Assembly (NCBI GenBank): GCA_027186245.1
Contig: CP114486.1
Coordinates: 2,976,001 to 3,040,000 of the forward strand
From: Coriaria nepalensis
Lineage: Eukaryota; Streptophyta; Magnoliopsida; Cucurbitales; Coriariaceae
Reading direction: 5' to 3'
DNA length: 64,000 nt
The position numbers and the translations under genes were made by a program. The notes beneath the pieces are model-generated. The model saw only the letters and a list, made by a program, of their open reading frames with translations. It was not told the origin of the DNA and ran no database searches. Position 1 is the first letter of the stretch; the number at the start of each line of letters is the position of its first letter. Below are positions 6,937 through 31,960 of the stretch, one piece after another.

Positions 6937-7047
6937 GTCAGACGTTTCCTAGAGTTCTCTTGAGCACTTCACTGAGGCTTGTCTTCTGTTTCTAATCTTA
7001 GATTGTCTCACTGAAGTGTTTGGGGGAACTCTTGGTAGCTATCTGAC
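6937..7047 (+). ncRNA. MIR395: MIR395 precursor, copy 1
   Basis: The 3' arm holds a 21-nt sequence at 7011-7031 that starts CTGAAGTGTT and ends GGGGGAACTC, identical to the canonical plant miR395. The 5' arm (6951-6982, AGAGTTCTCTTGAGCACTTC) pairs with it, and GTCAGA/TCTGAC closes the base. Known role of the family: sulfate-starvation-induced repression of ATP sulfurylase (APS) and the sulfate transporter SULTR2;1 mRNAs. Mature strand on the 3' arm is typical for MIR395. Confidence 0.95.
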
Positions 7048-7790
7048 ATGTTAATCAATAGAAAATCCATGCAGGATTGGTTTATGTTTTCTAATTAACT
7101 CTTGTTGGGCAGTAATTAATGAAATCAAAGTTCAGTTCTCGATTTATTAACTGCTGTAAGCCGTGAACGGAAAGGTGATCGGAGTAATCAAAATCTGGGT
7201 TATTATTATTATTTTTTTAATATTATAGGAGAAAAAGAAGGTCCCGAGCCATATTAGAACAACGCTTGAATGTCGTTGTAGAAAGTTAAAATATCAATAA
7301 TAGCAAAAAATAAAAAATTAGCTGAGATTTTCAATTTTTAATTTTTTTTTTGCTTCTTCTGTGTATTTAGTAAGCAGGTTAAAGTAAATTATTTATACTG
7401 AAAAGCTTAAATTAGCCCCACAATTCACTATGTGCGTGTGGTAGATGTGTATAAAATGTTATAAAAGAAAATTGTAAAATCCAAATTTAGTTTTGAATCT
7501 AGTCTTAGGGAACGCGGCAGGTCCAGCAGCCATTGGTGATGGAGGCGGAGGCCACAGTGTCAGAGGCGGCAGTATGATGGCTGTCTATGGTGGATGTGTA
7601 TCAAAATGTAATGAAAGTCAATTTTAGAGGAGCAAACTTGAATAAAAAAAATTAAAAAAGAAATTGAGATGGTAGTAATAACAGAAAGTTAACTTATAAG
7701 GGTCAAAATAGAAGAAAAAAAAATGCATTCATTTTTTTTTTGATATGGCAAACAGTGTTATGTCTGCATTTTTCTAATAAAATATACAAA

Positions 7791-8064
7791 AACAGATTTT
7801 ATATTAAAAATTATTATATATTTTTTTATTAATATTAATTATCTTATTATTAAAATTATTTTATTTTAACTATAATAATTCATATATATATATATAGATG
7901 TATTGTATTTTATTAATATAAAAATATAATTATATATTTAAATATTATCTATAACCTCTATTCTTTCATTAGAGCACTATATGTCAACATTATATTTTTT
8001 TGCTCCACTCCCTTTCAATTGAATCATGACTTTTCAAAAATTATAAATTCCAATCGTATCATTA
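7791..8064. other. AT-rich spacer
   Basis: AT-rich DNA between the MIR395 unit and a Copia-like remnant. I see no genes or clear repeats. Confidence 0.4.
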
Positions 8065-8725
8065 CTCACCACCATGACCTCCGTTGTAACTGCTTCAACT
8101 CTTGCCAATATAATCGTAGCCTCACTATTAACACAACTCCCAATCCAACACATAACTAGTTTTATATTCACTTGTCTCGATGGACCTTACATGAAATTTT
8201 TAGATGGAGTCAATTATCATTACCATCGATATAATACAACATTTGAACAGTTCCCTACAGGCATTACAGATTACGAATCTCTCACAACTACTCTTGATTA
8301 ACTCGTTGTTCGTCACATATCCACTGGTTTGACTATGTAACTCACTTGGAACCCCTTCATTGCCTTTTATAATACTTATACTACTCTTAATTATTTCTAA
8401 TATTTTACTTCTCATTTTTTTTGAGATTTTCCACAATCAAACGTTTCTTATTTTGGTTCTTCACATAACATTTGAATACTACAAACAACATAACAGCAAC
8501 AAACGCTAATAATAATAACTACTTCAATAGTCATACTAGGAGACACCGACGAAATTACGAGTACATATATATATAATCATAAGTACCTTATTGCAGATCA
8601 AATTGCGGATAGAATTACAGATGCTCTTACTAAGAGTCTTTATCTTACCTATTTTCAGTTTCTACGGTCCAAGTTTACTGTAGATACCTGTGTTTCGCTT
8701 GAGGGAGATGAAAGAATATTATGAT
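8065..8725 (+). pseudogene. Deleted Copia-type retrotransposon remnant
   Basis: An ATG at 8074 opens a 75-codon reading frame whose FLDGVNYHYHRY-like segment recalls the start of Copia gag proteins. At 8595-8710 the translation reads IADQIADRITDALTKSLY then FQFLRSKFTVDTC and SLEGD, which is the C-terminal end of Copia RNase H (consensus ADILTKSL..FL..KL). The bulk of pol is missing, so this is an internally deleted, dead copy. A purine-rich GAGGGAGATGAAAG follows, as expected for a polypurine tract. LTRs were not defined. Confidence 0.5.
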
Positions 8726-10479
8726 TTTTTACTAGTTTTAGTTATCTTATCGTAAAGATTATCTTATGGGTAATAATTGATAAGACAGATGTCACTGTCT
8801 TCATTTTTTTTCTGGTTTATGTTATATCCTATTTATGGGGAACACATATTTTAGAGGTTATTCTAGCTTTTAATATTTATCTTTTTCTGTTTTAGATTTT
8901 TTAGGTAACGGTAAGCTTCAGTGGTTATTCCAACGTTTTCTCCAACTTTATTCTTTTTCTGATTCGTTTGAAAGATTGAGGTCGGACAAAAAGGAGGAAG
9001 TGGGAGTTTTTTTTTTTTTTTTTTCAATTATAAATTAAAACATGTATATCGCTTTGTTTCTTTGTACAAAAGGTGAAAATTTTAAGAGGCTTTATGGTAA
9101 GTGAAACTTTTTCCAATTTTTTTGGAGTTTGCTTTTGCAATAATGGTCTATAATATGTCTTGCCGTTTTGGAAAAGCTTGATTCATTTATTAAAACGTCA
9201 GTGGATCTTGAGATTCCGTGGAGTTGAATCCTTCACATCAAATTTGTTCAAACGACTCGTCGGCCTTCTCATCTTACGGAAACGAGTCTGTTAAATCGAC
9301 ACATATAGTTTAGCGGCGTGAGCGAATCTGTTAGTTGACTGTTTGCTGAGATTAGCTTCATCTTCAGGGATCCGGATTTACAAATTCCGACCGATGCCGC
9401 TAACAATCAGAACCCAGCAAACCATATCTTTTAGTTTTGACCAGAAATGTTAAAACAAATTTTTAATATCTTTTAGCTAGACTGCCTTCTTGAATTAGAG
9501 CCTGAAATTTGAAATTTCTTCACAAATCCAAGAAAAAGTTGAAATGCTAGAGATTCATTTTTAACAATTTATTAATGACCGACCTAAATACAACCACATA
9601 ATCATATAGTTTGAGATCATATCAAAGTAATTTCCAAAAAAGAAAAAAAAAATATATTCGTCCCTTAAACTCTTCCATAATTATCAGCTAAATACACATG
9701 CCAAGTGAACCAAAATAGGAAGAGAAAGTGGAAGGGAGGAGAGAAGAGTGAGGAAACAAGTATACTCATCGGTGGAGGGTTCTGATCATTGGCGGTGGCA
9801 GCCGGGATTCTTAGAGATATTTGTGGTCGTTGTTCTATTGATAGGATGGATTGAGTTTCTAAGATGGTGAAAGGAGGTAATTTTAGTTTTATTTAAGTTG
9901 GTTAAAATTAAAGCAATTTTGCCCATCAGATTTAACTTAATCTAATGGTTCAAAACTTATGTAAAATATTGTGTTCCTTGAACATTCTTGAAATCATTAT
10001 ATTTAACTTAATCTAACGGTTCAAAAAGTTGTGTAAAATATTGCGTCACCTTCTCTATTCATATTGTTGTTTTAATATCTCTATTCATATGTGTGAATTG
10101 TGATGGGGGTCATGTTGTTTAGGTTCCCACCACAAAACCTATTACAAAAATATATGGTTTTCAAATCGACAGCAAAACTACATATATAATCACGTTTTAC
10201 ATTTAGGGCCAATTCCATCCGTGCTTTGATTTTTAAACACACGCGATGAATATAAACTATAGGAATAGTACCTAGGACGAACGTACAGTACAGTAAAGTC
10301 AAGAGATATTTAGGGGGGTTTCGCTATTCTGAGAAGGAAACACACAATGAATAACTTTCCTAGCCAGAGCATCTTTAGTGGATTCCACACGACATGTACT
10401 ATATATTTGCACCTTAGCTTATAATCTCATTCATACGACTAGCTAATTAGTACTCCAAATACTAACAATAAGTATCAAA
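8726..10479. other. Intergenic region upstream of the terpene synthase
   Basis: No coding gene was recognised. Two imperfect direct repeats of about 55 bases (ATTTAACTTAATCTAATGGT and the next copy with AACGG) lie at about 9930-9985 and 9998-10053. The last 100 bases form the presumed TPS promoter, with ACTATATATTTGC near 10398 as a possible TATA element. Confidence 0.4.
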
Positions 10480-10636
10480 ATGGCTAAAGTCTTAGAACAA
10501 AGTAATGGCATCAGCTCGAAAACCAACCGTCGCTCAGCCAATTACCATCCCAGCATTTGGGGTCACCATTTCCTCTCATATGATAGTCATGCTTTGGTAA
10601 AAATCAAAGCGCCTTACATACATCATATGCATGCAC

Positions 10637-10669
<33 letters not shown>

Positions 10670-12690
10670 GCTTGTTATATATACATCCGAGCTTTCATGA
10701 TTCATACTTTTTGTGCATGCAGGAAAGCGATGATACATTGGTGGAAAAGGTTGAGCAACTGAAGAAAGAAGTGAAGAGAAGGCTGATGGCTCCGATTGAG
10801 AAGCCCTCACACAAACTGGACTTGATTGATGCAATTCAACGTTTAGGCGTCTCGTATCATTTTGAGGATGAGATTTGTGTAATTTTGAAGGAATTACATG
10901 ACCAGATCCTAAAACAAGAAAACAACTACAATGATGATGATGACGATCTTTACACTGTAGCTCTCCGGTTTCGATTGTTTAGACAGGGAGGTTTCAACAT
11001 TTCCTGTGGTAAGTTTCATAATATTCTTCTCTTCAAAAGAACACATACGTATCATATTTGTATAACTCTAATTAACTGATTGGATGTTGAATTAAGCAGA
11101 ATTTTTGGAGAAGTACTTGAAAGATAGCGAAGGCAAATTCAAGGAATCAATTGTAAACGACGTGCGAGGAATGTTAAGTTTGTATGAAGCTACTCATTTG
11201 AGCATTCATGGTGAAGAAATACTTGATGAAGCACTTGCTTTTACTATCACTCATCTTCAGGAGTACTCTAATTTGAACTTATCAACAACACTACTTGCTT
11301 CACAAGTAAAACATGCCTTAGATCGTCCTCTCCGAAAGGGCTTACCGAGACTCGAGGCTATGCATTATTTCTCCATTTACCAACAAGAACCTTCTCACAG
11401 TGAGCTTCTTCTAACCTTTGCCAAGTATGATTTCAATCTACTCCAAGAACTCCACCAGAGAGAGCTTAGCCATATTTCCAAGTGGTGGAAGGACTTAGAC
11501 GTTGCAAAGAATCTACCATTTGCCAGAGATAGAATAGTGGAGTGTTATTTCTGGATATTGGGAGTGTTTTTCGAACCCGAATATTTGTTCGCAAGAAGGT
11601 TCTTGACCAAAGTGATTGCCGTGACATCTGTTATGGACGACATCTATGATGTCTATGGTACTCTTGAAGAGCTTCATCTCTTCACTCAAGCAGTTGAAAG
11701 GTTTGAATCATACATGAACATTTTACCTATATATTCAGAAGTTTCATGACTGGCTAGCTAATTGGAACTTATTTTAAATTTCAGGTGGGATATTAATTCA
11801 AAAGATCAATTGCCAGAGTACTTAAGATCATTCTTTCAGGCACTGCTAGATGTGTTTAGTGAAGCTGAAGAGTATTTGGCTACACAAGGAAGATCATACC
11901 GCATCTACTATGCGAAAGAAGAAGTAAGCCATTTTGTATCCACGAGTTTTTTTTTTTTTTTGGCCAATATCCCCACGAGTTTGAATTCTTGAACTTATAA
12001 TTACAACACTAATTTATTGAATTTTGTTAATATAGATGAAGAGACAGGCGAGAGTATACTTGGAAGAGGCAACATGGTACCATGAAAAACACATTCCGAC
12101 ATTGGAGGAATACATGTCGGTCGCACTTATTTCTTGCGGCTATCCATTGCTTGCAACAATTTCTGTTGTAGGAATGGGAGATGTTGCGACCAAAGATTCC
12201 TTTGAATGGTTATCCAAACATCCTAATAAAATTATTAAAGCGTGTTCACTAATTTCAAGACTTATGGATGACATTGTATCACACAAGGTATATATTGGCT
12301 ATTATATATATACGTATACCTTGCTGCTAATTACATGACCTAAATATCATAAGATTTGATTGCTAATTAATATATATTTCCATGTTATGTATGTAGTCCG
12401 AGCAAGAGAGAGGGGACGTCGTGTCGGCTATCGAATGTTACATGACGAAACACGGTTGTACGGAAGAAGAAGCCGAAAGAGAATTGAAGGAACAAGTGAA
12501 TGATGCGTGGAAGGATATAAATGAAGGGTTATTGAATCCAACCTCGATTCCCATGGCTCTGCTCATGCCTGTTCTTAATCTTTCTCGAGTGATGGATGTG
12601 GTTTATAAGGATGAAGATGGATACACTAATGCTCATGTTACTCTTAAGGATTCTGTCTCTTCTCTCCTTATCAATCCGGTACGTCTCTAG
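10480..12690 (+). CDS. Terpene synthase, TPS-a type (probable sesquiterpene synthase)
   Basis: A complete gene of six exons: 10480-10596, 10723-11008, 11100-11700, 11785-11923, 12036-12287, 12397-12690, encoding 562 residues. Such enzymes ionise farnesyl diphosphate and cyclise it, usually in the cytosol; no transit peptide is present before [12 protein letters not shown], the RR(x)8W motif. The class-I metal-binding motif is DDIYD, the second motif is DDIVSHKSE, and the RDR motif is in PFARDRIVE. The C-terminus is [13 protein letters not shown]-a genes usually have seven exons; here the family's third and fourth exons (…LSHISK / WWKDLD…) are continuous, so one intron seems to be absent. The product cannot be predicted from sequence. 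The reading frame is intact throughout. Confidence 0.92.
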
Positions 12691-12937
12691 GATTAGTAGA
12701 TAATAGAGAATTTAGAAGGCCAAGCATAAGGATCAATTATTGTATTGGTATCACTTTCTGTATTGTCTGTCATACTGTGTTTCTACCTCGTGCTTGAAGC
12801 GGCACATTGTTCTTGTAGCTGTACTGTATGCAAATTTGCAGATACCACTTCGGTCAATAATTGCAATAGTGGAAGGCAAGAAGGCTCCACAAGCCCAATA
12901 AGACAATAGAAGACGTGTGGCAATTACCTAATTAATT

Positions 12938-13598
12938 TGTTACCACAAAATTATTTTATTTAATTGCTACTTTAATAATCGGAAATATTTCAAATTAATT
13001 TGAATAATTTTGGATATGGCTATTATACTTATAACTTAATTCCATATCCAATATTACAAAAGTTAAGAACCCTCGTTTATAGTTTATCCCCAAAATCATA
13101 ATTGAATATAGAAGATTACGTGTATTTTAAATTTTAATAAACGATTGAATCTCTCTATACTATTTCAGATTGATTACAACGCTCCAATCACTCCAATCAC
13201 ATATTTACACCCTCACATACAATGTATAAACCTAGATAAGATGATCTTAATAATTTCAACACATATTAGAACACTATGCATATAAGAAAAAATCATACTT
13301 CCAAGATTATTTAGATTATCAAGAAATTATTATCAATATATTCAAACCTTATGAAAACTCTAGATTACGTAGTGAAGAATATCCTATAGAGATGATGAAG
13401 AAATTACGCTCGCAAACCCTAATATTTGAAAGGGAAGGGTGAAAATAAAGATGACTTAAGTATCAAAGGATAAATGACTTAGATTGGATTTAATGATTTT
13501 AATCTAATGGTCCCAAGTTGCCTCACACTAAATCGGGTTAAGGAATAATGTGGGCATTCTCTATGGACTTATGGGCTTCAACCATGTTTAACCCAACA
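12938..13598 (-). mobile_element. 3' LTR of the Copia remnant
   Basis: On the minus strand this begins TGTTGGGTTAAAC and could end GTGGTAACA, giving TG...CA ends. It is preceded, on the minus strand, by a purine-rich AAAGGTGAAGAT that fits a polypurine tract. The right boundary at 13598 is well supported by the PPT; the left boundary is a guess, as no second LTR is present for comparison. Confidence 0.5.
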
Positions 13599-15420
13599 AT
13601 CTTCACCTTTGGAGCTCACAAGCCCTCTACTAGCTTAGTACCTTTCCCAACAGATATTCTCTATTATGAAATAGTGCACAAGGATCCATTACAATAATGC
13701 CTTCATTGCTCCATGGGACTGATAGTTACCCGACATGCAGTAAGTCCAAACAATGCTAGAACTTACTTGTGGCAGCCACCTTAAAAACTAGATATGAGGG
13801 ATTTTCCTCAGTAGGAACTTTGAAAATCCTCAAAATACCAGAAGCTAGTTATTTTCTAACAAAATGATACTTGATGTCCATATATTTAGTCCTTTCATGA
13901 TGGATTGGGTTTTTGAACATATGGATAATACTATGGCTATCTGAGTAAATGGTACAAGATTCCTTCATCATTTTTATCTCCTAAAAAAAACCTTGAATTC
14001 ATATTGCTTCTTTAAACACATCTGTCAGAGTTACATACTATGCTTCTGTTGATGGTAATTCAACAATAGGTTGTAGCTAGGTTTTCCAACTTACATAGTT
14101 TCCCCCTAATAGAAACTGGTAAGATGTAGTTGATTTTTTGGAGTCATAATCTCCTGCAAAATCACACTATACAAGACCCACTAAACAAAAATTATCAATC
14201 CATGGTCCAAAATTTAAACCAATAGTAAAAGTTGAACTCAAATATTTTTCAGTAACCATTTTAGTGCTAAACAATGATCAAAACTAAGGTTAGACATAAA
14301 TCTACTTAAAAGAGATATAGAAAAACTCAAGTCGGGTCTTGTATTAATCATGGTGTACCTAACTGATACTATAGCATTAATATATGAGATTTGATCCATT
14401 TTTAGTTTATCATTTTCAGTTTTAGGGGATTGGTCTTTACTAAGAGTGAAGTGCCAAGCCAAAGGAAGAGATACATGCTTATAACCAGTTAATCCAAATT
14501 TATCCACAACTTTCTTTAGATAATTTGTTTGATGTAACCTAAGTATATTCTTAGTTCTATCTCTTATTATTTCCATACCTAAAATTTTCTTAGCATCCCT
14601 AAATCGTTTAGGTCAAATTCTAAATTCAATTTTACTTTTAACTCTCTTATTTTTTACTTAGATTTACTAATAATGAGCGTGTCATCCACATAGATTAATA
14701 GAAATATCAGATTATTCTTAAGACAAGAATAATACATACAAGTGCCAAATTTACTTTTAGAAAAACCAAAATTCAACATGCATAATCAAATTTTTTATAT
14801 CATTGTCTAAATGATTGCTTTAACCCATGCAATGATTTTTTTAGCAAGTAAGCAAAATCAAAGTTATTCTTGTTTACAAATCCAAGTGGTTGATTCATAT
14901 AAATTTTCTCGTCTAAAGTTTCATGTAAGAAGGTAGTTTTTACATCTAGTTGTTCCAATTCATAATCATAATATGTAATAACAGCCAACATTATTTTTAT
15001 AATATTAAATTTAACAACAGGGGAGAAAACTTTATTTATAGTCTATTCATTCTTTCTCGGTAAAGCTCTTAGCAATTAATCTGACCTTATATTTAGGAGG
15101 ATTAAGGGAAGTCATATATTCATTCCATTTATAAAAGCACTTATAGTCAATAATTCTTCTTTTGGCTGGTATTGGGACCAATTCCCAAGTTTGATTCATG
15201 GCTAAGGAGTATATTTCCTCCTCCATTGCATCAATCCATTTGTCTTTGTCATGAGACTACATTGCATCATGGTAATCCATCGGTTCTGTTTCAGCAATAT
15301 CAAAACCTGCCACTAATGTAACATATATTAAATCCACATAAGAGTATTTAGAGTTACGTCTTACCTCCCTTCTAGCCCTATCCCAAGCCAATTGGTAATC
15401 ATTAAGCTGGTTATAATACA
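13599..15420 (-). pseudogene. Ty1/Copia retrotransposon, 5'-truncated and frameshifted pol
   Basis: Read on the minus strand, the pre-RT linker (VDLIYVTLVAGFDIAE, then TEPMDYHDAM near 15260) is followed by reverse-transcriptase segments: LDVKTTFLHETLDEKIYM and LLKKSLHGLKQS at 14800-14950, then KNILRLHQTNYLKKVVDKFG and NTRPDLSFSISLLSRF at 14260-14576. Degenerate RNase H sequence runs down to the LTR. Several frameshifts and stops separate the segments. Gag, protease and integrase are absent, so the copy ends abruptly at about 15420 against the MIR395 unit. It is non-functional. Confidence 0.85.
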
Positions 15421-15725
15421 ACCAATACCCGATTGTATATAGGAATAGACAATGCCGGACTGTTCTACGTAAGGCCATAGGAAAAGGTCATGACAGTCTT
15501 GTTGGCAATTGTGGAAAGGAAATAAGTTCATGATTTGATTCTCTGAAAAAAATCTTTTGTGGAAAGGGAAAGTATGATTCCCTAGCTTGAGCTCCTAATT
15601 ACCCCATTTTTCTGGCCAGGTTCATTACTTAGACTGAAAGCTTTTCTTCATGCAACTAGGAATCATATTATCTTCCATTTATCTATCTATCTATCTGATG
15701 ATTCTCTTGTGTCATGTTTGTTTCT

Positions 15726-15734
15726 CTATAAATA
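15726..15734 (+). promoter_or_regulatory. TATA box of MIR395 copy 2
   Basis: CTATAAATA in the conserved block, about 110 bases before the hairpin, followed by a GA microsatellite at about 15805-15839. Confidence 0.7.
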
Positions 15735-15807
15735 CAAAACCTGATTTCTATCTTGCTTCATTAAGAAAGTACTAGAGCATGCAAGAAAGTTGTAGTACTT
15801 ACCAAAG

Positions 15808-15839
<32 letters not shown>

Positions 15840-15842
15840 CTG

Positions 15843-15953
15843 GTCAGACGTTTCCTAGAGTTCTCTTGAGCACTTCATTGAGGCTTGTCTTCTGTTTCTA
15901 GTCTTAGGTTGTCTCGCTGAAGTGTTTGGGGGAACTCTTGGTAGCTATCTGAC
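15843..15953 (+). ncRNA. MIR395: MIR395 precursor, copy 2
   Basis: Mature-strand position 15917-15937 is a perfect canonical miR395 on the 3' arm. The 5' arm carries GAGTTCTCTTGAGCACTTCA and the base is closed by GTCAGA/TCTGAC. It differs from copy 1 by only a few substitutions in the loop, so the duplication is recent relative to the other copies. Confidence 0.95.
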
Positions 15954-17109: not shown

Positions 17110-18800
17110 ACATGAAAAGTGCAGCTACAGTGACCCCAGAGATATCATATAGTCTCTATAAGATACTACAAAAAAAAAAAGAGCATTTTAGCAGCATCTC
17201 AAAGGTGTTACTGAATTCGATTTTGTAACACACACGAGCAGTAAAAAAACCGATACTATATTGGACTTACCGCTAGATTATATTTAGCGGCATTTGGTTT
17301 TCATTTCGTAGCACTTTAACATGGTTTTCATTTAGTAGCACTTTATCATAGGTGTTGTTAGTAATTTTTGCACACCTTTATTACATTAATGTAATCACTT
17401 TATTTACATATTCTTCCTCATCTTTATTACATTAATGTATCAACATTATCAAAATATATAACAAATTTATATTACTAAATAAAAATTTAGTAAAACTTAA
17501 TAAAATTCTATTATTAGAAGTTTAATTTCTTACAAACAAAGTTATCAACAGCTACATACACTAGCCCCAAACTTGAATCCAATCACCAGCTACTGCTTGA
17601 AGCAAGTAAATAATAGTAATTAATTAATTGCATTACAATATTTGCCTGAATTTGAGCGATAATCTCTAAATCTTGAGACTTGACAAACCTTTCAAACTCC
17701 TGCTTGAACCACCCACCTGCAAAGTGAAGTAGATTTGGTTCATTGATATGTTAAAACAAAAACAAATACACATGGTAGCAATCACGTGTGCATTTTAACT
17801 TCAATAACATCATATTAACCAACACTAAGGATTCTGCAACTCACATGCTTATATAGTAAACTTTTAGACTAGAAAGAAGTATATGATTCAGTATTCGATG
17901 ACAAAAAAAAAATGGTAAAAAAGGGACGAGGAAGCAATTATAACATACAAATCAAAGAATCAACCAACATCAAAACCACTTAATGGTGACCATGCTTAAA
18001 CTAGGTGAGCATAAATGATGAAAAAGATTAACCAACACTAACTACAAACGCATGGGGGAAAGTAACTTACTAAATATACTTTACAGGACAAAGGATTCCA
18101 GCTATTCAAATGCATTTTGAAGCACTTTATCAGAAGCTATTTTGGATCCATACACTGAGCTAGCACTGGTTCAACAACTTTCAAAATATCCTCTGCCTTT
18201 TGGTAATAATTCAGAATATGCTCCAAGTTTAAATAATTCAGAGAGAGAGAGGTGGGAACTGGGAACGAAGAAGGAAAATATCAAAAATTTGAAAGGGGCG
18301 AGCGGTGGCTAGAATGTTTGAAACCCTAAAAGGGTTAATCAAATATATCATACTTTTTTAAAAAAAATAACGAGAAGTTATGACCTTATTGCAAGGAAAA
18401 TGAATTAAAAAAATTATAAACTAAGAAGAAAGAAAGAGCATGTGGTTGATTTGATTTAGGTGATATCGAATTTATATAATTGAAATTTAGTAAATTGGAT
18501 TTAGGGTGTAATTTAAGTTCTTTTATTTTAACGGTACTATAACTGGTGCTGTTAATTTCGTAGAACATTAACGTTATTCCCACGTGATACTTTAGCTGTA
18601 AAATTAATGAGTACCACCAAATAGGATCAAGTAGCGGCACTCTTTCGTAGAACCACTAAATGCGTGCCTCTAAAACGGAGTTTTTTGGTAGTGAGAAAGT
18701 CTCCTTTGAGTTTGAGGCAAACCCGTTCTCCGTTGAGTTTGACGCCAAATGATGGGTCTCCTCGGTTGTCTCATCGGCAATCGCCATGTGTACACTGGTT
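17110..18800 (+). pseudogene. Kinase 3'-end fragment split by a CACTA transposon
   Basis: Two pieces, 17110-17163 and 18694-18800, together match the last ~120 bases of the kinase coding region at 5075-5216. The left piece (AAAAGTGCAGCTACAGTGAC…) parallels kinase AAAAGTGTGGTTAGAGTGCC. The right piece AAGTCTCCTTTGAGTTTGAG then GTTGAGTTTGACGCC parallels the codons for the kinase tail. The fragment contains no kinase domain and cannot encode a functional kinase. It marks the left end of MIR395 unit 3. The sequence continues into the kinase 3' UTR copy. Confidence 0.8.
17164..18693. mobile_element. Non-autonomous CACTA (En/Spm-like) transposon
   Basis: The right end reads …TTTTTTGGTAGTG, reverse complement CACTACCAAAAAACTCC; the left end is TACTACAAAAAAAAAAAG, a one-base change from CACTAC. 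A 3-bp duplication AGA flanks it at 17161-17163 and 18694-18696, as expected for CACTA elements. Removing the element restores alignment with the intact kinase gene, which independently confirms both borders. Subterminal TAGCGGCA and TTTCGTAG-type motifs occur near both ends. The 1.5-kb interior has no transposase. Confidence 0.82.
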
Positions 18801-19836
18801 GAATGGATCTTGTTAAGTTTTGATTGAAAGTGAACTAAGTTACTATTACGTCGTGTGTATCTGTAGAAGTTATGTTTGAGAGTATGCCTTTTTTTAATAC
18901 AATAAGATCATGTTTTATCCAATAACATGACTACTTATTCTCGAAATTATATTGTAAGGTTAAAAATCTCTTGTTATAGACCAAAATACCAGATAACATG
19001 GGCTAGCTTTTTAGAATGCTGATTGCACGTCTGGAAACATTGGAACAAAAAAGAAAGCAAAACTTTCAGTTAAACAAATACTATGGTTTGAGTTCGTCCC
19101 CACCCACATGGGCTTATGACCGACTTATGGTCGTGGACAGTGGGTGACCCACGCAAAACAGAGAATGTCTAGAATTTCACTTTATATGTTGAAATTGTTT
19201 TGGGAGAAAGATTTCTGATTGATATATAAATAAATAAATAAAAATTTCTCTATAAAGTATTTTAAAGGAAGAATAATTAAATTTTAAAATTTAATATGAT
19301 GTTAGAGCTAAATTAAATAAATATATCCGTATTTTATTTCAAAAAGCATTCCTTAAGCATTTTATCATTTGTTGAGCTTTCGAAATAACAAGCTCACAAG
19401 TGAACGAGAGTGTTGAAATTATCTTACATTATTTTGAAAGAATATATATGTTTGATTTATAACTAAGAAATTTCATTTTACACTATAATAAATACATGTA
19501 CATCCTTTTCAGCTTTGAATTTCTTGATGCAAAGCACCTAGCAGTAGACGAATCGGATTGTAATGCAACCAGATCAAAGCCCAATTGTAAATAGGAACAG
19601 TCATGCCGAACCATGAAGGTCTTGTTGACAATTGTGGAAAGGACATAAGTTCATGATTTGATTCTACAAAAAAATCTTTTGTGGACAGGGAAAGTACGAT
19701 TCCCTCACTTGAGCTCCTAATTACCCCATTTTTCTGGCCAGGTTCATTACTAATCTTGAAAGCTTTTCTTCATGCAACTGGGATTTGTATTATCTATCCG
19801 TCTATCTGGTGATTCTCTTGTATCATGTCTGTTTCT

Positions 19837-19934: not shown

Positions 19935-20045
19935 GTCAGATCTTTCCTAGAGTTCTCTTGAGCACTTCATTGAGGCTTGTCTTCTGTTTCTAGTCTTAGG
20001 TTGTCTCACCGAAGTGTTTGGGGGAACTCTTGGCAGCTATCCGAC
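19935..20045 (+). ncRNA. MIR395: MIR395 precursor, copy 3 (mature position 2 variant)
   Basis: The miR395 position is 20009-20029 on the 3' arm and begins CCGAAGTGTT instead of CTGAAGTGTT; the remainder is canonical. The 5' arm has GAGTTCTCTTGAGCACTTCA. The base stem GTCAGA/TCCGAC keeps pairing through G-U or mismatch. The change lies at nucleotide 2, at the edge of the seed-like region important for target pairing. Confidence 0.88.
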
Positions 20046-22744: not shown

Positions 22745-22977
22745 AGATATTATTATTTTGAGATTATGGAGAACAACAGTTTCATGATTTTGATTCTCTA
22801 AAAAAATCTTTTGTGGACAGGGAAAGTATGATTCCCTAGCTAGAGCTCCTAATTAACCCCATTTTTCTGGTCAGGTTCATTACTCCTATTGAAAGCTTCT
22901 CTTCATGCAACTGGGAATCATCTTATCTATCTATCTATCTAGTGATTCTCTTGTATGTGGAATTCATGCTTGTTTCT

Positions 22978-23077: not shown

Positions 23078-23188
23078 GTCAGATGTTTCCTAGAGTTCTC
23101 TTGAGCACTTCAATGAGGCTTGTCTTCTATTTCTAGTCTCAGGTTGTCTCACTGAAGTGTTCGGGGGAACTCATGGTAGCTATCCGAC
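23078..23188 (+). ncRNA. MIR395: MIR395 precursor, copy 4 (mature position 11 variant)
   Basis: The miR395 position is 23152-23172. It reads CTGAAGTGTTC then GGGGGAACTC: nucleotide 11 is C rather than T. The 5' arm GAGTTCTCTTGAGCACTTCA is retained. Positions 10-11 flank the slicing site, so the change could alter target cleavage efficiency; this is an inference. Confidence 0.88.
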
Positions 23189-23665
23189 AGTTTAATCAAT
23201 GGACAATACATGCATGATTGGTTTCTCTTTTCTAATCAGCGCTTGTTGGGCAGTTATTAGCGAAATCAATGTTCCGTTCTCGAATTATTAACTGCTGTAA
23301 GCATGAACACAAAGGTGATCGGATCGAGTTTCTTGCTCTTATACCATGTTATTACACAAATATTGGAGGGAAAATAAAACTTAGTTTATTATTATGTTAC
23401 ACTGTTCACTTGCTACGGTTAGTAATTAGTAGAGGCTGCTAATTAACTAATCTCAATGCAACTAATCTGAAATTATAATATGATCCTGAACTATTGAGTT
23501 ACTATCTCAATATGTATACTTAACACAAGCTATTTTAATTTTCATACTTCATTATTTTATTTGTCAGGAAGATTGGACTGAAGTAATCGAAGTTGCATTA
23601 GATGCACTACATTTTTTTAGCCTTTCCAACGGATTTTCAATGTTTCCCCGACGGCTTTTAAGCTT

Positions 23666-24210
23666 ATGCTTGGGTGGAGGTGTGGGAGATAAAAGGACCT
23701 TCATTAGAGGAATGGGAAGGAAGAGATTAAAGTTCATTTTTTTAGTATTTAGATTTTTTCTAAATAAAGGAATATATTATTTAGATGATTTCATGAATGA
23801 AAGAAAGTGAACGTTTTGATATATTTATAATTATAAAAATATAATCATAAATATTTAATTAGATAATAAGATTAATATTAAAAATATATTTTATAAAAAT
23901 ATAGGGTGTATTTGGTAATTATTATTATTATTTTCAGATAGTTTTTTTTTTTGTATATTATAAGCAGGTGGTGGCGAAATTGAAAATTTTGTTTGGTTTA
24001 TTAAATTATTGAAAACTATTTTCTTGAGTTATTATATGAAAATTGTTATCTTAAAATAGGGAAAAAAAACATTCCTAAGATCTTCTCTGAAAACTCTTTT
24101 TTATATTTATTTTCACAAAACAGTTTTTGTAAAATTATAATAAGAAAATACAGCTAGGTATATTAGTTAGTTATTTTCTCTATTCTAAGAACATAAAATC
24201 TATTCTCATA
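23666..24210. other. AT-rich spacer
   Basis: Very AT-rich DNA with (ATT)n and poly-T runs. No gene or defined element found. Confidence 0.4.
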
Positions 24211-24218
24211 ACATTATA

Positions 24219-24373
24219 CTTAAGTGTTTGGGAGAACTCTTGGTGGCATCTCTTCTCCTTCTATTCTTAATGAGGTTGTCTTACTCAAGTGTTTGGGAGA
24301 ACTCTTGGTGGCATCTCTTCTCCTTCTATTCTTAATGAGGTTGTCTGTCTTACTCAAGTGTTTGGGAGAACTC
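24219..24373 (+). pseudogene. Triple tandem MIR395 3'-half fragments
   Basis: Three miR395-like sequences stand at 24219-24239, 24284-24304 and 24353-24373. All end GGGAGAACTC; two begin CTCAAGTGTT and one CTTAAGTGTT. They are separated by 65 and 69 bases of the same loop-like sequence (CTTCTCCTTCTATTCTTAATG, AGGTTGTC). This equals the loop plus 3' arm of the hairpin at 27.9 kb. No matching 5' arm precedes them, so a normal precursor stem cannot form. The downstream GGTGGCATCCGACATG is shared with the 27.9-kb copy. Best read as decayed and tandemly expanded MIR395 fragments. Confidence 0.72.
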
Positions 24374-24770
24374 TTGGTGGCATCCGACATGTTTTAGTAA
24401 TCACAATCCATGCATGCACTTCTCTACATATCTGATTGACAAAGCGTTTAAAAGTATTCCAATATTAAAAATGTCCAAAAGAAACTCTCTAGATTCCGAG
24501 AGAGCTAATTGTTGTTATATTATTTATTTGGCAAAAAAAAAAAAAGAAAAAAAAAGTTAATTATATAGAACGTCATAGGTTTACAAAATACACTTCTCTA
24601 CATAATAATATCTTTACATCAAACAAAAAAGATATAAAATAAATAAATACTCATACTTCCTTTCTTATGTACAGCTACAAGTAACCATGCTTATGTCACT
24701 CAAAGTAAACAGTTGATACATTTCATACTTCAAATCCACAATAGTGCTTCATCATTCGGTCGACCGTTGA
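24374..24770. other. Spacer after the MIR395 fragments
   Basis: Contains an A-rich run (24532-24556) and AT-rich DNA; no gene seen. Confidence 0.4.
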
Positions 24771-25910
24771 CTAAGCTAAGACACAAAACAAAGCTTCAAT
24801 ATTCTAACACAGTTGAATAAAATACTCATCCATGATTTAGCTAACTCTTGGCCGGCGTGCAAGCATCGGACCGGTTAAAGTAAGATGGCAGTTATTACTG
24901 TTTGCCAAATATGGTCGGAATTAGCATTATCAAGGAAACTAGGGCAACCGAGCACATGAACGCTGTTAGATTTTTGTATGACGGTGAAGGAAATGAGAGA
25001 GCAAAGAAGATGAAAGGTGAAGTCTGAACTCTCGTTTTTTGATATGAAATTGCAGACTTGCAAAATGCAAGACTGATACTTGTATTAATAGGCATAAACT
25101 GAAGCAATTACATGGCAATCTGAAATTGCAACTAAAAGCGTCATTAACTATCTAATACATCAAATAAAACCAGCTAAGACAGAAGCAAAAGAAACAGGCT
25201 TTTAGCCACAATTGGAGAAAGCTGAGATGCAAAAGCAATAAGGCTTTTGACAGCTTTATGCTGCTGAAAAGCAATTTTAGATTCCAAACTTGCAAGAGAG
25301 CTCTTCTAACTTTAACAGAGGCAGGAACACATCTAGGAAGATGTATAGAACTTGCTTGGATGATAGGAAACCAACTAGAATTTGAAATGAGGCCACTGAA
25401 TAGAGCTAGAAGTAAGCAAGCTTGGAATAAGAATCTGTCAACCTGGTGAATAGATAAAACCTTCAATACGGATCCGATTGACCTCAAACCAATTCGCACA
25501 AAACTTTGTTTTGAGGTGTTCTAGCTCACTGCAGAAGTCAACGCAAGAGGAATAGAAAATAAAAAGAAATCTGAGTTGTGAAAAGTAGTTTTGAGAGAGT
25601 TGAGCAAGAACAAGCAAATTCTAACAAACGCAAGGAAAGTTGGCACAAAGTAGATCTATTGTGAGAAGAACAGAAACTTAATAGGCTATCAAGGTAAGAA
25701 CCCTGAGGGTTTTTTAAGTTAGCGATGAGTGTTCTTTTCATCATGCAATATCTGAATTGTATAAACTAAGATGAATACGATGAGAAAGAGAAAGACAGTA
25801 TGTTAAATTGGTATAAATAGAAGAACTATAGATGTATCAAAGCAAAGCACTTAATCAAAACCTGGAATACATAACCTTTTCATATTCTTGAATTGGTAAT
25901 TAGTACCAAA

Positions 25911-26010
25911 TGGCACCAGGAGTTCCCCCAAACACTTCAGTACGAGGTCAATCAATAGTTTATAGATCAAACCCTGTATCGAAGTGTTCAGGGGAACTCT
26001 AGGGGACACC
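25911..26010 (-). ncRNA. MIR395: MIR395 precursor, copy 5 (minus strand)
   Basis: The exact reverse complement of canonical miR395 is at 25920-25940, so on the minus strand the mature sequence lies on the 3' arm, as in all MIR395. The opposite arm (25982-26001) reads, on the minus strand, GAGTTCCCCTGAACACTTC and pairs with it. Strand choice rests on this arm placement; the plus-strand reading would put the miRNA-like sequence on the 5' arm in antisense. A weak TATA-like AATATATTATAG lies to the right near 26087. Confidence 0.9.
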
Positions 26011-26842
26011 TGATGATCAATATCGATCGATAAACTCCCTAATTTATTAATTATCCTTAATTAATTAGTAGCTTACATGGTCTTCTATAATATATTCAAT
26101 GAAACGTGTATTTACAAAAACCCAGTATTTTATAACGAGTACTTCCTCTCTAGCTAGAATGAACCTAGACGCTGTTTTCGGTAAATTACATGATTCTTAT
26201 ATAGCCTTATATTTTATCAATTTATGGTGGTTCTTGATAAGTGTAGGTTGGTTATCGGACCAATTAGTAAATATCAACTAGTTTTAATATATTTTGCCGA
26301 GTTAAAAATTATTTACTTTAATTAGAGTCACAAAATTTCGGTATCAAAGAAAATTATGATATCTAAGTATCGAATAAGATATCAGTATCACATTAATATT
26401 ATATTGACTTTTTTTTTATTCTTTTTTTTCTACTAAGTAATTCTATTTAACTGAAAAAAAAAAAGAATAAATTCTCGATACTTTATATAAATTATAATAA
26501 ATTTTAAAAAAATTAAATTTATAATTAATACTCAAATATATTTAAATTATAATGAATACTCGAAATTTAAAATTAAATTATACTAAACCTCCATCTTTAT
26601 AATGGATCAATCCTAAATCATTAACCGCCCAATGCAATTTAATCTCACCCATAAGTTTAGAAATAATTTTTATTTCTAAAATAGTTTTTAGTTAATCTAA
26701 ATTAAATTTTTTTTTTCCAAAATTTTTTCATACAACCTCTCAAGCTTAAAACAACGCCGATTTATGGTCAATTACTGTTACTAACCATGGTTGGAAACAA
26801 ACTGATCTAGTTTCTCGTAAAAAAGAAAAATCAAAACTTGAT

Positions 26843-27082
26843 TTGATTTCTCATGAAAAGACTAATCGAATGGATCCAACTTCTTTGCGAGAATTCGATC
26901 AACATGATTCGAGTCTTCAGGAGGAACCAGATTTGATCAATCCGATTCTTCCTCATAAAAAACTGGTTCAATCTCCGGTTCTGCCTCACGAAAAATCAGA
27001 TCAATCGAGTTCTTTGATTGTTCTTCCTCCAAACAGAATAATCAATATATCATCACTTTTTCAGCCTTTGGAAAAGCCCTAA
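26843..27082 (+). other. Unrecognised repeat-containing reading frame
   Basis: An 79-codon open frame contains imperfect direct repeats of about 20-25 codons' spacing (DLINPILPHKKL, VQSPVLPHEKSDQSSS). No family was recognised. It is AT-flanked, lies inside the duplicated minus-strand block, and is not preserved as an open frame in the other copy. It may be chance. Confidence 0.2.
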
Positions 27083-27237
27083 ATTCCTCACTTCAAAAAA
27101 AAAAGAAAGAACCAAATAAAAAAACAAAGAATACTATTAATTCTAACTTGTATGAAATAAATGTATATGTATATATATATATATTACTGGTACCGTTCAT
27201 TTTAACTGCACATTTATATGTATGCTTGTATGTCAAA

Positions 27238-27336
27238 TGACACCAGGGGCTCCCCCAAACACTTCAGCAAAGACAAGATAGAATGAGAGAGCAAGTCTTC
27301 AATGAAGTGTTTGAGGAAACTCTAGGGGACAACTGA
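27238..27336 (-). ncRNA. MIR395: MIR395 precursor, copy 6 (minus strand, 3'-end variant)
   Basis: On the minus strand, 27267-27247 reads CTGAAGTGTT and ends GGGGGAGCCC, so nucleotides 18-20 region differ from canonical GAACTC. The 5' arm on the minus strand is GAGTTTCCTCAAACACTTCA (about 27322-27303). A TATA-like TTATATATAGAG on the minus strand lies at about 27393-27404, roughly 60 bases upstream. Confidence 0.88.
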
Positions 27337-27384
27337 CCATTTATGGATCGCGAATTAATGTTTACCGAAGCTATCTTCCTATAT

Positions 27385-27838
27385 TGCTCTCTCTCTATAT
27401 ATAAGAGAGAGAGAGCTAGGTTAATCGTGCTGCTTAATTTGCATAAAAACTGGCTACAATCATTCTTGCTATTTCTTTGAAGATGAACCTAGACGCATCC
27501 CTTGAAGATGGGAGAAAGAGACACAAATTAGCAATTTGCATGCAGCATATATATGCTGTTGATCTTTTTGTTTGCTGGAATCCATGGCATATTAAGGCCT
27601 GCATGGTGGTCATGAATCTGATTATGTACAACTTATGTTTTTAGTTTTACTTACAAGCTGCTTTGTAGACAGGAAAAAAGTAGTCCTTATCTGTCCATTT
27701 TTCTGGTCAGGTTCAATTTTGGATACTTCTTCCCCAACTGGGAATCCTCTTTGTACCCATTTGGGTGCTTCTTCTGTACACATGTTGAGATGCTTCTCTT
27801 CTCTATATATAGGAAGCGGATGATCAGTTTGTTTTAAG
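27385..27838. promoter_or_regulatory. Shared upstream region of two divergent MIR395 hairpins
   Basis: This ~450-base region lies between copy 6 (minus) and copy 7 (plus). Its right half matches the plus-unit promoter (GTAGACAGG, CCATTTTTCTGGTCAGGTTCA at about 27693) and has TATA-like CTATATATA at 27803. Its left half carries the minus-strand TATA-like sequence at 27393-27404. It also contains GAACCTAGACGCATCCCTTG, repeated at 32.16 kb. A bidirectional promoter arrangement is inferred. Confidence 0.5.
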
Positions 27839-27940
27839 CGGATGAGTACCCTTGACCACTTCATTGTGACTTCTCTTATCCTTATAGTCTTAATGAGGTT
27901 GTCTTACTGAAGTATTTAGGGGAACTCTTGGTGGCATCCG
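27839..27940 (+). ncRNA. MIR395: Divergent MIR395-like hairpin, copy 7
   Basis: The miR395 position, 27907-27927, begins CTGAAGTATTTA and ends GGGGAACTC, differing from canonical at two sites. The 5' arm GAGTACCCTTGACCACTTCA at 27844-27863 pairs with it imperfectly and GGATG/CATCC extends the stem. The promoter block is partly conserved, with a changed TATA (CTATATATA). It may be a weakly active or decaying copy. Confidence 0.65.
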
Positions 27941-28010
27941 ACATATTTTAGTAATCACAGTCCATGCATGCTGAATTGTTCATTATTGGTGGGATTTTCT
28001 TAAAAACACA

Positions 28011-28061
<51 letters not shown>

Positions 28062-29119
28062 TTTTGGAATCAATAAGTTAGTGTTTTTATCCAGCAATCT
28101 TAAGAACCTTTTTGTCTCATTTGCATTCAATTTTTTTTATTAAACGCATATATACAGTGGCCAGAAAGAAAGAAAAAAAATGAAAATGGGAATGTGTAGA
28201 AGTAGAATTTTAATAGAAATTATAAGGGCACGCGTGACAGTTCGTTTTAAAACGTATTTTATTGATCTGTCATATTTTAAAGAGTGTAAGAAATATATTA
28301 AATTATATTAAATTTTTATTTTTTTATTATTATCTTTTAATAATTATAAAAATGCTCTAAAATATTTTGAAAATTGTAGTTTTATTTTTTTTCCAAATTC
28401 TTCAGCTATCGATCTAGTGAAGCTCCATCAAATCTATATATTTTTATTTATATATATATATTTTTGAATATATAGGATTTTTTTTATAATTATTAAAAAT
28501 AAAAATATACTACTGTAATATATTAAATTATATCTATCAAAAATATATATTTTTTGAAATATTTTTAAACATCTAAAAAAATGAGATTGTTAATGCAGTT
28601 TTTTAATGTATTTACAATACCAGTTAAAGTGAATGATAATCCTACAATCAAACTTTGTACACACACAAGTGCCTCAATAGTAGATAGCTTCATTTGCTAT
28701 GGAAGTCGGTAATCATACAATCACTTGTGTTAAAAGTTGATTTTGAACCAACAATCAATGCTAGTGTAAGAAACTAAGAACAATCTAAATAAAACTATCA
28801 AATTGTATTATTAAAATTTACAACCAAATAATCAAAAATATCACAAATTATTAAAATATATAAAGTTTATATATTCATCAATGAATGAGTATAAAGAGAA
28901 AATATGATAATTACTACAGTATAAAATAGCTTAAAATGTGAAATACAAAAATAACTAAAATTAAATTTTGTATTTCACATTTATCACCGGTTTACGAGGA
29001 AAAAATCAGAACTGATTTTTGAATTTTTCTAACACAGAATTTGAAGCCAAACAAAATTGTCAGGAGAAAATTATCATATTTCATATATTGAAACATAAAA
29101 ATCAGTTTGCAGGCCCAAA
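27941..29119. other. AT-rich spacer
   Basis: Contains (TA)n followed by poly-T at 28015-28065 and otherwise AT-rich non-coding DNA. No gene found. Confidence 0.4.
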
Positions 29120-30058
29120 GTAGTTGCGGAAAAACAAGGAAAACTTTTAGATGATGGGGGTAAAGCAAAGGGTGTTCTCAGGGAAACGAAAACTATTTGT
29201 CAATGATTAGTTATACAAGAAAGATGATAATATAGAGTCAGATGGAGGTAGCTGGCCTACAGCCACAGAGTCTATGAAATTATTGTCTTGGAATTGTCAA
29301 GGGGTGAGACCTCCTTTAACAGGTAAAGCTCTTAGGGAGCTAATAAAAATAAATAGCCTTGCTGGAAGAATGAAGATGATAATGTTAAGATTTAGATTGA
29401 CATTTCAAGGTTATTGGTTGGTAGATCCGTTTGATAATTCAGAGAGATTGGGGTGGAAAAATGATTGGAGGGGTGAGGTTGCTTTGGTGGTTGTCAAGGA
29501 GGGAGATTGGATTTTGATAAATCTGAGTTTGTACCGATTTTTAGATCAGCATTTAGTGCTGCCGGATGGTTGGCCGCAGAACAAATTGAGAGATGTGCCG
29601 AGCATATGGATGGATGTTTTTACTCCCTTCTCCCTTAAGTTTGTTTATGGTTATCGTTTCTTTTGTACTTTATGTGATTCATGAGCCTTCTGAGGGGAGC
29701 TTTGGCATGGGTTTAAGGGTTTCTCCTTTAGTTGCAAGTCGTAAAAATCAGGTCTTTTCTTTCTTGATTGAGTTTCTGGTTGGTATTGGTGGTAATCTTC
29801 AAAGGGTGCATGCACTCTCTAGAAAGACTTCCAGACTGGTATTGACTGGAGAGATTTGCTTCCTTTTGTTTTATTGTTTTTACTTTTCTGGCCCTTGTAT
29901 TGGGCATGGTTCTCTTTTCTTAGTGATGGTTTGTTTTGCTTTGTTTTATTTATGCTTCGCTTCTTTGTTGGCTTAGTTTGTTCTTCTATTAGGCCAGGGG
30001 TTTCTTTGACAAGGTTGTCTCCTTCTTAGTGCAATGAAATTTCACGTTTGGCCTTAAA
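29120..30058 (+). pseudogene. L1-type LINE fragment
   Basis: An ATG at 29274 begins MKLLSWNCQGVRPPLTGKAL, the typical start of the apurinic-like endonuclease of plant LINEs. Later WKNDWRGEVALVVVKEGDWI matches the same domain's middle. The frame is then broken, and no reverse transcriptase is present. The last ~60 bases (TGCAATGAAATTTCACG then TTGGCCTTAAAAAA) resemble a LINE 3' end with a short A tail. The copy is internally deleted and inactive. Confidence 0.72.
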
Positions 30059-31163
30059 AAATGTATCATATTAATTAAAATTAAATGAAATTTGAAAAAA
30101 ATTAAGGAAAAACTTATATAAATACTCTAATAGACAAATTAAAATAACTGAATTTCTAATTTCTTAAGTAACTTGGGAGTCAGAAAACAAAGCTTCAATG
30201 TCTAACACGGTTGAATGAAAAGCTTATCCATGATTTAACTGACTCTTGGCTAACTCTTGGCCGGCGTGCAAGCATTAGACTGGTTAATGTAAGATGGCAA
30301 TTATTACAGTTTCCAAATATGGCGCCCGAATTAGCATTATCAAGGAAACTAGGGCAATCTAGTACATGAATGTAAGGAAAGTTGGTACAAAGTTAGATTC
30401 ATTATGAGAAGAACATAAACTTAAAAGAGTATTTGCATCTAGCTTTTCTATCTGATTATCTAAATTTAATTTAGTTTTAACTATGATAATTTTTAAAATT
30501 TTATCTTATCAAATTCAACTTAATTCCACGTCTGATTTTATATTCTATTTATATATTAATAATTAAATAATATTTTTTAAATATAGATAATCGGATAATG
30601 GACATTTTTTTTTAAATATTTTTATTCTGATTTTTTAGAATAATAGCTAATAAGAAGTTTTAGATAATCGGATGTTGTTGATGTTATAGGCAATCAAGTT
30701 ATGATGGTTCTTGATAAGTATAGCTTAGTTATCAGACCATTTAGGAAATATCAACCAGTTTAAATATATTTTGCTGAGGGAAAAATAATTATCTTCAATT
30801 AGTGTCTGCAAAATTATCGGTCTCGATAAGAATTTCGATATCGGATACTTATAGCCCTTAGATGAACTAGGCAATTGTTTAGGGCCCCAGATTTAGGAGG
30901 CCCCAAAACCCCCATTAGCTGACTAATCACAACTTAACGTAGAATTTGATCTCCCTTAAAATTCCATACACATCCATGCTTACACTTACAGTTTGCTTGT
31001 TTATATGAAAACGATGGGAAAGAAATCACCATGGCAGCCTCAAACTAGACCTGAAGTTCTGAACAAACAGAATAATCAAATACATCATCACTTTTTCACC
31101 TATTGGAAAAGCACTACATTCCACGCTTCAAAATAATAATAATAATAATAATAACAATAATAA

Positions 31164-31754
31164 TGTTGATGAGGATTTCCCTTCGTCTGAAGGGAAATCC
31201 ATGACCAACTGTGTGCTTCAGGGTCGAATGTACCTGCATAGATCAACAGTGGATCATTGGGGTGACGGTCGGCGTACCCTCCTCGATGATCAAGTCAGTT
31301 GTGGTTCTTTTTTGGAGATTAGGAGAGGCAATCGTATGATTTGTTATTATGTACCTGCTTATGCGATTTAACTCTCATTTTATAAGTTTGATTTTGAGAC
31401 AAAATCCTAGTGGGCCCTCCGGCCCTTGGGCCACGGCAAAGGCCACACATGAGCCTTACTTATGGAGCTCATCCCTTATGGTTTCCGGGTCACAACGAAG
31501 GAGCCCAGGGTCACCAGTGATCCCGCCCAGGGTCAGCGTTGGCTTTATATGACCACCGAGCCTCCACTTAGGATGGTACTTCAGCCTATACATTTCGGGG
31601 AGTCACGTGCTCATCCAGCCATTGCCGTCATCCTCAGCCTCATCACCCAGGGCCCCCGCTTCCTCATCTTTATCCCGAGGTAGATCTCCTACTAAATATT
31701 CTCGGACGAGTGCGGCCTTGCTGAGACTAGGACAAGGTCACTTGCCACCTAACA
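31164..31754. mobile_element. Solo LTR with AATAA target duplication
   Basis: A 591-base segment begins TGTTGATGAGG and ends CACCTAACA (TG...CA with TGTT/AACA inverted ends). It is flanked on both sides by AATAA (31159-31163 and 31755-31759). It is absent from the paralogous position in block A/B (27.10 kb) and is much more GC-rich than its surroundings. No internal retrotransposon genes are present. Because the target is an AAT-rich tract, the 5-bp duplication alone could be chance, but the paralogous empty site supports the call. Confidence 0.72.
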
Positions 31755-31860
31755 AATAATAATAGAAAACAAAGAATACTCTAACCTGGATGAAATATAT
31801 GTACGTATATATTACTGGTGCTGTTCATTTTAACTTCACGTTTATATGTATGTACGTCAA

Positions 31861-31960
31861 ATGACACCAAGGGTTCCCCCAAACACTTCAGCAAAGACAA
31901 GATGGAATGACAGAGCAAGTCTTCAATGAAGTGTTTGAGGAAACTCTGGGGGACACCTGA
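31861..31960 (-). ncRNA. MIR395: MIR395 precursor, copy 8 (minus strand, position 19 variant)
   Basis: On the minus strand, 31891-31871 reads CTGAAGTGTT and ends GGGGGAACCC, one change from canonical near the 3' end. The minus-strand 5' arm is GAGTTTCCTCAAACACTTCA. Sequence and flanks match copy 6 closely, so the two derive from one ancestor. A TATA-like run on the minus strand (TTTATATATATATAT) is at about 32045-32060. Confidence 0.9.

Follow-up and report, generated by a model that had tools for sequence, protein, structure and literature searches.

The microRNA (miRNA) miR395, a tuner of sulphur use, targets ATP sulfurylase and SULTR2;1 (PMC12428225, PMC4206189; papers are cited throughout for particular passages), and its genes are clustered in several plants, with two clusters of three genes in Arabidopsis and 24 genes in four clusters in rice (PMC5344913), and 16 genes in four compact clusters in maize (PMC2773440). 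For the rice clusters polycistronic transcription has been proposed (PMC2812943), soybean MIR395 genes include both tail-to-tail and tandem duplications (PMC3481472), and in Arabidopsis all six MIR395 promoters have been tested with GFP (PMC4212615). Here we analyse a stretch of 64,000 nucleotides from Coriaria nepalensis (GenBank assembly GCA_027186245.1, contig CP114486.1, positions 2,976,001 to 3,040,000 of the forward strand), hereafter the window, in whose positions all coordinates are given, and report that it holds an instance of the MIR395 family, a 25-kb cluster with members on both strands. A preliminary description had placed eight hairpins there and pointed to similar clusters in rice and other plants, a statement that the literature on rice, maize, Arabidopsis and soybean bears out. 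We consider it very probable that this is an ordinary eudicot MIR395 cluster, grown by local duplication, in which seven genes work, an eighth is decaying and a ninth copy, now an array of repeated 3' arms, is dead.

Results

The hairpins, arms, duplicated blocks and motif positions given below were read directly from the DNA. Across the whole window the miR395 20-mer was matched 14 times with at most three mismatches, compared with no match in 100 shuffles; eight of these are 3'-arm positions, three are star arms that belong to hairpins of the minus strand and were read off the opposite strand, and three are the members of an array that begin at 24220, 24285 and 24354. We call the four evenly built plus-strand units A1 to A4, the remaining plus-strand hairpin C, and the minus-strand units B1 to B3 from low to high coordinate. 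Together with Rfam matches and folds, the 20-mer matches confirm eight hairpins with miR395 on the 3' arm at the places and on the strands first reported. Seven of them passed the curated gathering cut-off of the Rfam MIR395 family RF00451 (56 bits, a covariance-model score) with 59.2-68.5 bits, and each of these seven folds into a single long stem whose 3' arm carries miR395, at -40.0 to -53.6 kcal/mol, with none of 200 mononucleotide shuffles as low in any case.

The canonical miR395 21-mer is present in A1 (6937-7046; miR395 at 7011-7031; RF00451 match 6942-7041, 64.3 bits; fold -50.3 kcal/mol), A2 (15843-15952; 15917-15937; 15848-15947, 64.5 bits; -47.8 kcal/mol) and B1 (minus strand, 25905-26014; 25940-25920; 25910-26009, 68.5 bits; -53.6 kcal/mol). 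A3 (19935-20044; 20009-20029; 19940-20039, 59.2 bits; -40.0 kcal/mol) carries the change T2C, and A4 (23078-23187; 23152-23172; 23083-23182, 64.3 bits; -47.4 kcal/mol) carries T11C, which adjoins the cleavage position. On the minus strand, B2 (27232-27337; 27267-27247; 27237-27332, 63.4 bits; -43.2 kcal/mol) has A18G and T20C, and B3 (31856-31961; 31891-31871; 31861-31956, 67.4 bits; -47.7 kcal/mol) has T20C. Hairpin C (plus strand, 27836-27942), with G8A and G12A in its miR395 (27907-27927), is weak and decayed: it scored 40.1 bits (E 4.6e-5), under the cut-off, its fold is poorer (-31.1 kcal/mol, with three of 200 shuffles as low), and four of its 21 miRNA bases are unpaired, compared with one or two in the other seven. 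The folding check proposed in the preliminary description thus succeeded for seven hairpins and gave a weak result for the one at 27907.

No further intact hairpin was found in the window with a covariance model built from the eight hairpins (filters off, E<=5); apart from the hairpins themselves, the array and the reverse strands of the hairpins, no match exceeded 14.9 bits (E 0.14). The reverse strands of seven hairpins matched RF00451 at 33-51 bits, under the cut-off, and that of C matched only our own eight-hairpin model, at 24.5 bits. These matches follow from the near-palindromic stems, and we did not accept antisense hairpins as separate genes. The plus-strand readings of B1 (25905-26014) and B3 (31856-31961) come near the cut-off, at 51.1 and 48.6 of 56 bits, and, if transcribed, would give miR395-like RNAs with internal changes. 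Matches to MIR847, MIR1507 and MIR6027 near 50660-50820 lay far under their own cut-offs and were dropped as chance.

The arms have changed somewhat less than their surroundings. The star arms do not differ in any of 120 pairwise cells among A1-A4, nor in any of 20 between B2 and B3, whereas divergence is 8-21% in the flanks of A1-A4 and of B2/B3 and 13-20% in three further aligned pieces of the duplicated block described below. In counts of variable columns the contrast is modest, and hairpin copies are not independent of one another: both arms of the A units have two of 41, and their upstream sequence 41 of 254 (one-sided Fisher p 0.039); both arms of B2/B3 have one of 41, and their flanks 39 of 275 (one-sided Fisher p 0.020). 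Of the 222 pair cells in the eight hairpins, 96.4% are paired, a share higher than in any of 500 shuffles; pairs changed on both sides number four of 28, a figure equalled in 41 of 500 shuffles.

Two histories can be told apart among the copies: tandem growth of the plus-strand type A to four units, and duplication of a block that carried plus- and minus-strand members jointly. A1-A4 share 443-844 bp, including promoter and downstream sequence, at 83-90% identity. The first copy of the block (24217-27521) holds the array, B1 and B2, and the second (27866-32195) holds C and B3; six collinear matches of 76-87% identity join them, the pieces 24308-24417, 24779-24960, 25632-25684, 26216-26363, 27030-27107 and 27121-27521 corresponding in the same order and orientation to 27866-27971, 30178-30370, 30374-30427, 30693-30842, 31064-31142 and 31766-32195. 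Between 30427 and 30693 no counterpart of B1 was found at E 0.01. Since array, B1 and B2 are collinear with C, a missing member and B3, one block with both orientations was duplicated. The earlier proposal of two independent duplication histories in opposite orientations therefore stands as to their number, but they are not divided by strand. An exact 41-bp tandem doubling in the upstream region of B3 (31971-32053) doubles a TATATAG box.

The array (24217-24384, plus strand), which was absent from the otherwise correct first list of eight members, consists of three tandem MIR395 3' arms in units of 65-69 bases with a loop-derived spacer and without a 5' arm. It gave no MIR395 hairpin fold on either strand, no RF00451 match at E<=0.1 and no promoter matching those of the hairpins. 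Its last copy and the sequence downstream are identical to C at 95 of 106 bases, compared with 77-79 of 101 for A1-A4 and 52-56 of 94-104 for B1-B3, and it is on this identity and on collinearity, not on trees, that we group C and the array. Positions 3 and 15 of the canonical 21-mer are altered in all three copies. Relative to C, the miRNA part differs at four of 21 positions and the following part at two of 44; the miRNA part has thus changed faster, the opposite of what would be expected under selection on the miRNA. We read the array as a dead C-type gene whose remaining 3' arm was probably repeated in tandem. We rejected the idea that an older copy or a remnant of the loop lies upstream of it, since the best local match there was of eight bases, with 96 of 300 shuffles scoring as high.

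All eight hairpins are preceded, at a distance of 135-230 bp, by a short sense-strand motif, AGGTTCA(T/A), and these sites account for eight of its 12 occurrences in the window on both strands. Seven hairpins have the form AGGTTCAT, at 6731-6738 (A1), 15618-15625 (A2), 19740-19747 (A3), 22873-22880 (A4), and, on the minus strand, 26159-26166 (B1), 27483-27490 (B2) and 32157-32164 (B3); C has AGGTTCAA at 27709-27716. AGGTTCAT is the reverse of ATGAACCT and fits AYGWAYCT, the EIL (tebs-type) site that can also be bound by SLIM1 (PMC9573389, also our source for the letters of the UPE-box). This full consensus, on either strand, occurs upstream of seven hairpins; the AGGTTCAA of C matches seven of the eight bases, the last being off, and full-consensus sites occur only farther up from C, at -361 (the site of B2) and -232. 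C also has CAGGTTCAAT, ten bases of the reversed UPE-box. A TATA-like box stands between motif and hairpin in all eight, seven recognized by pattern, such as the CTATAAATA about 97 bp beyond the A1 site, and that of B1, TATAAAATA at 26134-26126, by eye.

Within 400 bp upstream, AGGTTCA is the sole 7-mer common to the sense strands of A1, C, B1 and B2, and when quartets were drawn at random from the window's right half, eight of 1000 had any 7-mer with at least three G/C in common. Random 400-bp sense stretches contained AGGTTCA(T/A) in 744 of 20000 cases with the cluster included; for stretches beyond its right end the figures were 0 of 20000 on the plus and 504 of 20000 on the minus strand. 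The looser EIL consensus AGRTWCRT occurs 23 times, which limits the weight of the motif. Five hairpins had been said to share a TATA-containing promoter block. This applies to A1-A4, which share an alignable block with TTTCTCTATAAATAC; in the one fifth candidate identified, that at 27907, the likeness is confined to short pieces such as CCATTTTTCTGGTCAGGTTCA, beside a separate CTATATATAGG. The separate transcription units proposed on that basis nonetheless seem likely, and for all eight hairpins rather than five, given the sense motif and nearer TATA-like box before each; from this arrangement we consider separate sulphur-responsive units likely.

B2 and C stand head to head across 27333-27835, with both AGGTTCA sites and both TATA boxes in between, and the interval is a possible two-way promoter. 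Two further TCTAGGTTCA motifs, resembling the upstream element of the B type, are found at 32382-32391 (plus) and 5694-5685 (minus). The corresponding CGTCTAGGTTCA sites at 32385 (plus) and 5691 (minus) were considered as marks of lost hairpins and rejected, as the eight-hairpin model shows none nearby; the site at 5691 is not retained in its duplicate near 19140.

A1 sits 1.7 kb downstream of a PBL3-like RLCK-VII kinase gene (3600-5216, plus strand), which reads intact in five coding pieces, its N-terminal start not being resolved. Among the best 120 of 7983 matches, its hand-spliced product reaches 82% identity with plant proteins, of which many bear the name PBL3. Self-comparison and tblastn place a fragment of its 3' end with unit A3 (18664-18880, plus strand); the 3' end (from 5129) and the sequence after it are repeated in pieces before A3 (18711-19571), and a further 47-bp match lies at 17115-17161. 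Before A2 or A4 no kinase match was found in the self-comparison of the window (E 1e-6) or by tblastn of two kinase readings (E 10). The earlier statement that units are still tied to a kinase gene fragment is accordingly true of A3, one of the four A units, and not of A1, with its intact-reading neighbour, or of A2 and A4. Inverted repeat copies at 2320-2603 and 6133-6421, 80% identical over about 300 bp and perhaps copies of a mobile element, flank the kinase gene, and a 31-bp tandem repeat of 3.7 copies (5891-6005) lies between it and A1.

Among the matches listed, the first for the window kinase names the subfamily RLCK-VIIa-2. We take Arabidopsis gene numbers to follow chromosome order. 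The MIR395 loci of that species are AT1G26973, AT1G26975 and AT1G26985, and AT1G69792, AT1G69795 and AT1G69797 (PMC3981707); AT1G26970 encodes a putative protein kinase (PMC2559843), and AT1G69790 corresponds to PBL18, which belongs to RLCK-VIIa-2 (PMC9116192). By these numbers, both Arabidopsis clusters adjoin a kinase gene. On the other side of the cluster there is a glyoxal-oxidase-like gene (51184-52935), with a top identity of 67% (Rhamnella) and 65% to the best-scoring protein, from Prunus, among the best 120 of 4036 matches. In a hand tally of the best 120 matches each, glyoxal-oxidase and kinase matches lie on equally long contigs in 13 of the 28 species noted in both sets and on different ones in 15. 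Among the matches listed, the distance between the tags of the two genes within a shared series is 5 in Erythroxylum, 11 in Paulownia, 23 in Bauhinia, 33 in Prunus and 60 in Ulmus, and exceeds 400 in Oxalis and Acacia. Together these observations stop short of proof but make the kinase look more like a long-standing neighbour of MIR395 than like a passenger. Other readings in the window are those of a terpene synthase (N-terminal and metal-binding domains, 10447-11749) between A1 and A2 and of a PTR2/NPF transporter (53446-55227); a reading at 29211-29684 matched no Pfam family.

Discussion

The explanation that we favour is that seven of the hairpins are probably working genes, each with its own short Pol II promoter of EIL/SLIM1-type site and TATA box. 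The plant dicing machinery would cut each hairpin to release 21-nt miR395 from the 3' arm, which under sulphate shortage would guide cleavage of ATP sulfurylase and SULTR2;1-type mRNAs. The eighth hairpin, C, would be decaying, and the ninth copy (24217-24384), with neither a 5' arm nor a matching promoter, would be dead, its 3' arm having been repeated in tandem. Growth would have taken two routes. By one, the plus-strand type A became a four-copy tandem beside the PBL3-like kinase gene, whose 3' end was carried along with one of the units; by the other, a block with a C-type member (plus), B1 (minus) and B2 (minus) was duplicated once, and the second copy is now without B1. What we infer in this account is that the hairpins are expressed and processed, that they respond to sulphate, which targets they have, and in which copy each loss occurred. 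SLIM1 induces miR395, directly or indirectly (PMC4206189), in keeping with the sites upstream.

Several observations weigh against this reading. The miR395 letters are altered in five of the eight hairpins (A3, A4, C, B2 and B3), and the tests of arm conservation, on copies of common descent, are weak (p 0.02-0.04). In a first tree A has support (98/97), as has the separation of B from all other members, array included (98/97), but trees leave the deep order unsettled: C and the array are unresolved in the first, and a second, poor tree of loop and 3' part places B1 beside them on a long branch (88/100). The AGGTTCA(T/A) motif was noticed first and tested afterwards, and its sites within a clade are inherited copies; TATA patterns are common, matching 50 times in the window; just three of the eight hairpins have the SURE core GAGAC/GTCTC upstream; and binding of the 8-base site by SLIM1 is weak (PMC4206189).

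Another view is that the cluster is mostly relic, with one or two hairpins at work, for example A1 and B1 with their canonical miR395, and the others silent duplicates on their way to being lost. C and the array have indeed decayed, and the A3 and A4 variants, T2C and, by the cleavage position, T11C, should pair less well with the usual targets. Yet star arms that remain identical within A1-A4 and within B2/B3, amid flanks that differ by 8-21%, and an AGGTTCA(T/A) site retained in every hairpin speak against general silence, and we regard this view as unlikely. Less probable still is polycistronic transcription of same-strand units, above all A1-A4, with all of them in one RNA or a few. Such transcription has been proposed for rice, and the rice and maize clusters are compact and same-strand (PMC2812943, PMC2773440). 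Here, a compact cluster on one strand with members less than about 1 kb apart, as in a rice-type polycistron, is not what we find: the A units are separated by gaps of 3.0, 4.0 and 8.8 kb, with the terpene synthase reading between A1 and A2, B1 and B2 are 1227 bp apart, the only pair under 1 kb is B2 and C (503 bp), which diverge, and every A unit has a site and TATA box of its own.

It would be a different matter if the array were not dead but had been amplified and kept as an antisense sink for miR395, read from the minus strand through its own promoter or by read-through as the tail of B1. On that strand it offers three sites complementary to miR395, with a mismatch at position 3, a G:U pair at 15 and full pairing at positions 4-14, and B1, 1525 bp away, is transcribed towards it. 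Endogenous target mimics have a bulge or mismatch opposite miRNA positions 9-11. Full pairing at 10-11 would make the array sites cleavable rather than mimics, and any minus-strand RNA would therefore contain three cleavable miR395 sites. The nearest precedent is the peach lncRNA7503, which is reported to lower pre-miR395a but was found not to be cleaved by miR395a and acts on the precursor (PMC13151148), whereas the array is known as DNA sequence alone. Any reversed MIR395 3' arm would pair likewise, the minus-strand transcript is purely putative, and it is the miRNA-like part that has changed faster (four of 21 against two of 44, relative to C), so that we give a sink very little credence. 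Were it real, it would be nature's equivalent of artificial tandem target arrays, and would have arisen in the very cluster that it restrains.

Taken as a cluster of mostly working, locally duplicated genes, the locus is a readable record of the growth and death of a nutrient microRNA family, and its broken copy illustrates one route by which an miRNA gene may die, one arm being lost and the other then repeated in tandem. The shared element precedes all eight hairpins even though the A and B sequences are otherwise unalignable, and it thus offers one testable cis element for miR395.

Compared with known systems, the locus resembles that of soybean in having tandem and mixed-orientation copies that arose by local duplication, but the soybean passages concerned describe no orphan-arm array or shared upstream element (PMC3481472). 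It resembles Arabidopsis MIR395a-c and MIR395d-f, small clusters with a kinase neighbour by gene number (PMC5344913, PMC3981707), in which each gene was tested with its own promoter-GFP fusion (PMC4212615), and differs from them in having eight members and a relic instead of three genes per cluster. With rice and maize it shares homologous MIR395 copies derived from duplication, but clusters there are compact (497 bp in one rice case), same-strand and supposedly polycistronic (PMC2812943, PMC2773440), whereas here the hairpins are spread over 25 kb and both strands, each with a site and TATA-like box. None of the titles or abstract openings listed for the MIR395 literature names a tandem array of orphan MIR395 arms, a term at which no search was itself aimed. 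Mixed strands and separate units are therefore not new in MIR395 clusters; what is new in detail is the present instance, with its block duplication, an element shared by all eight hairpins and the orphan-arm array.

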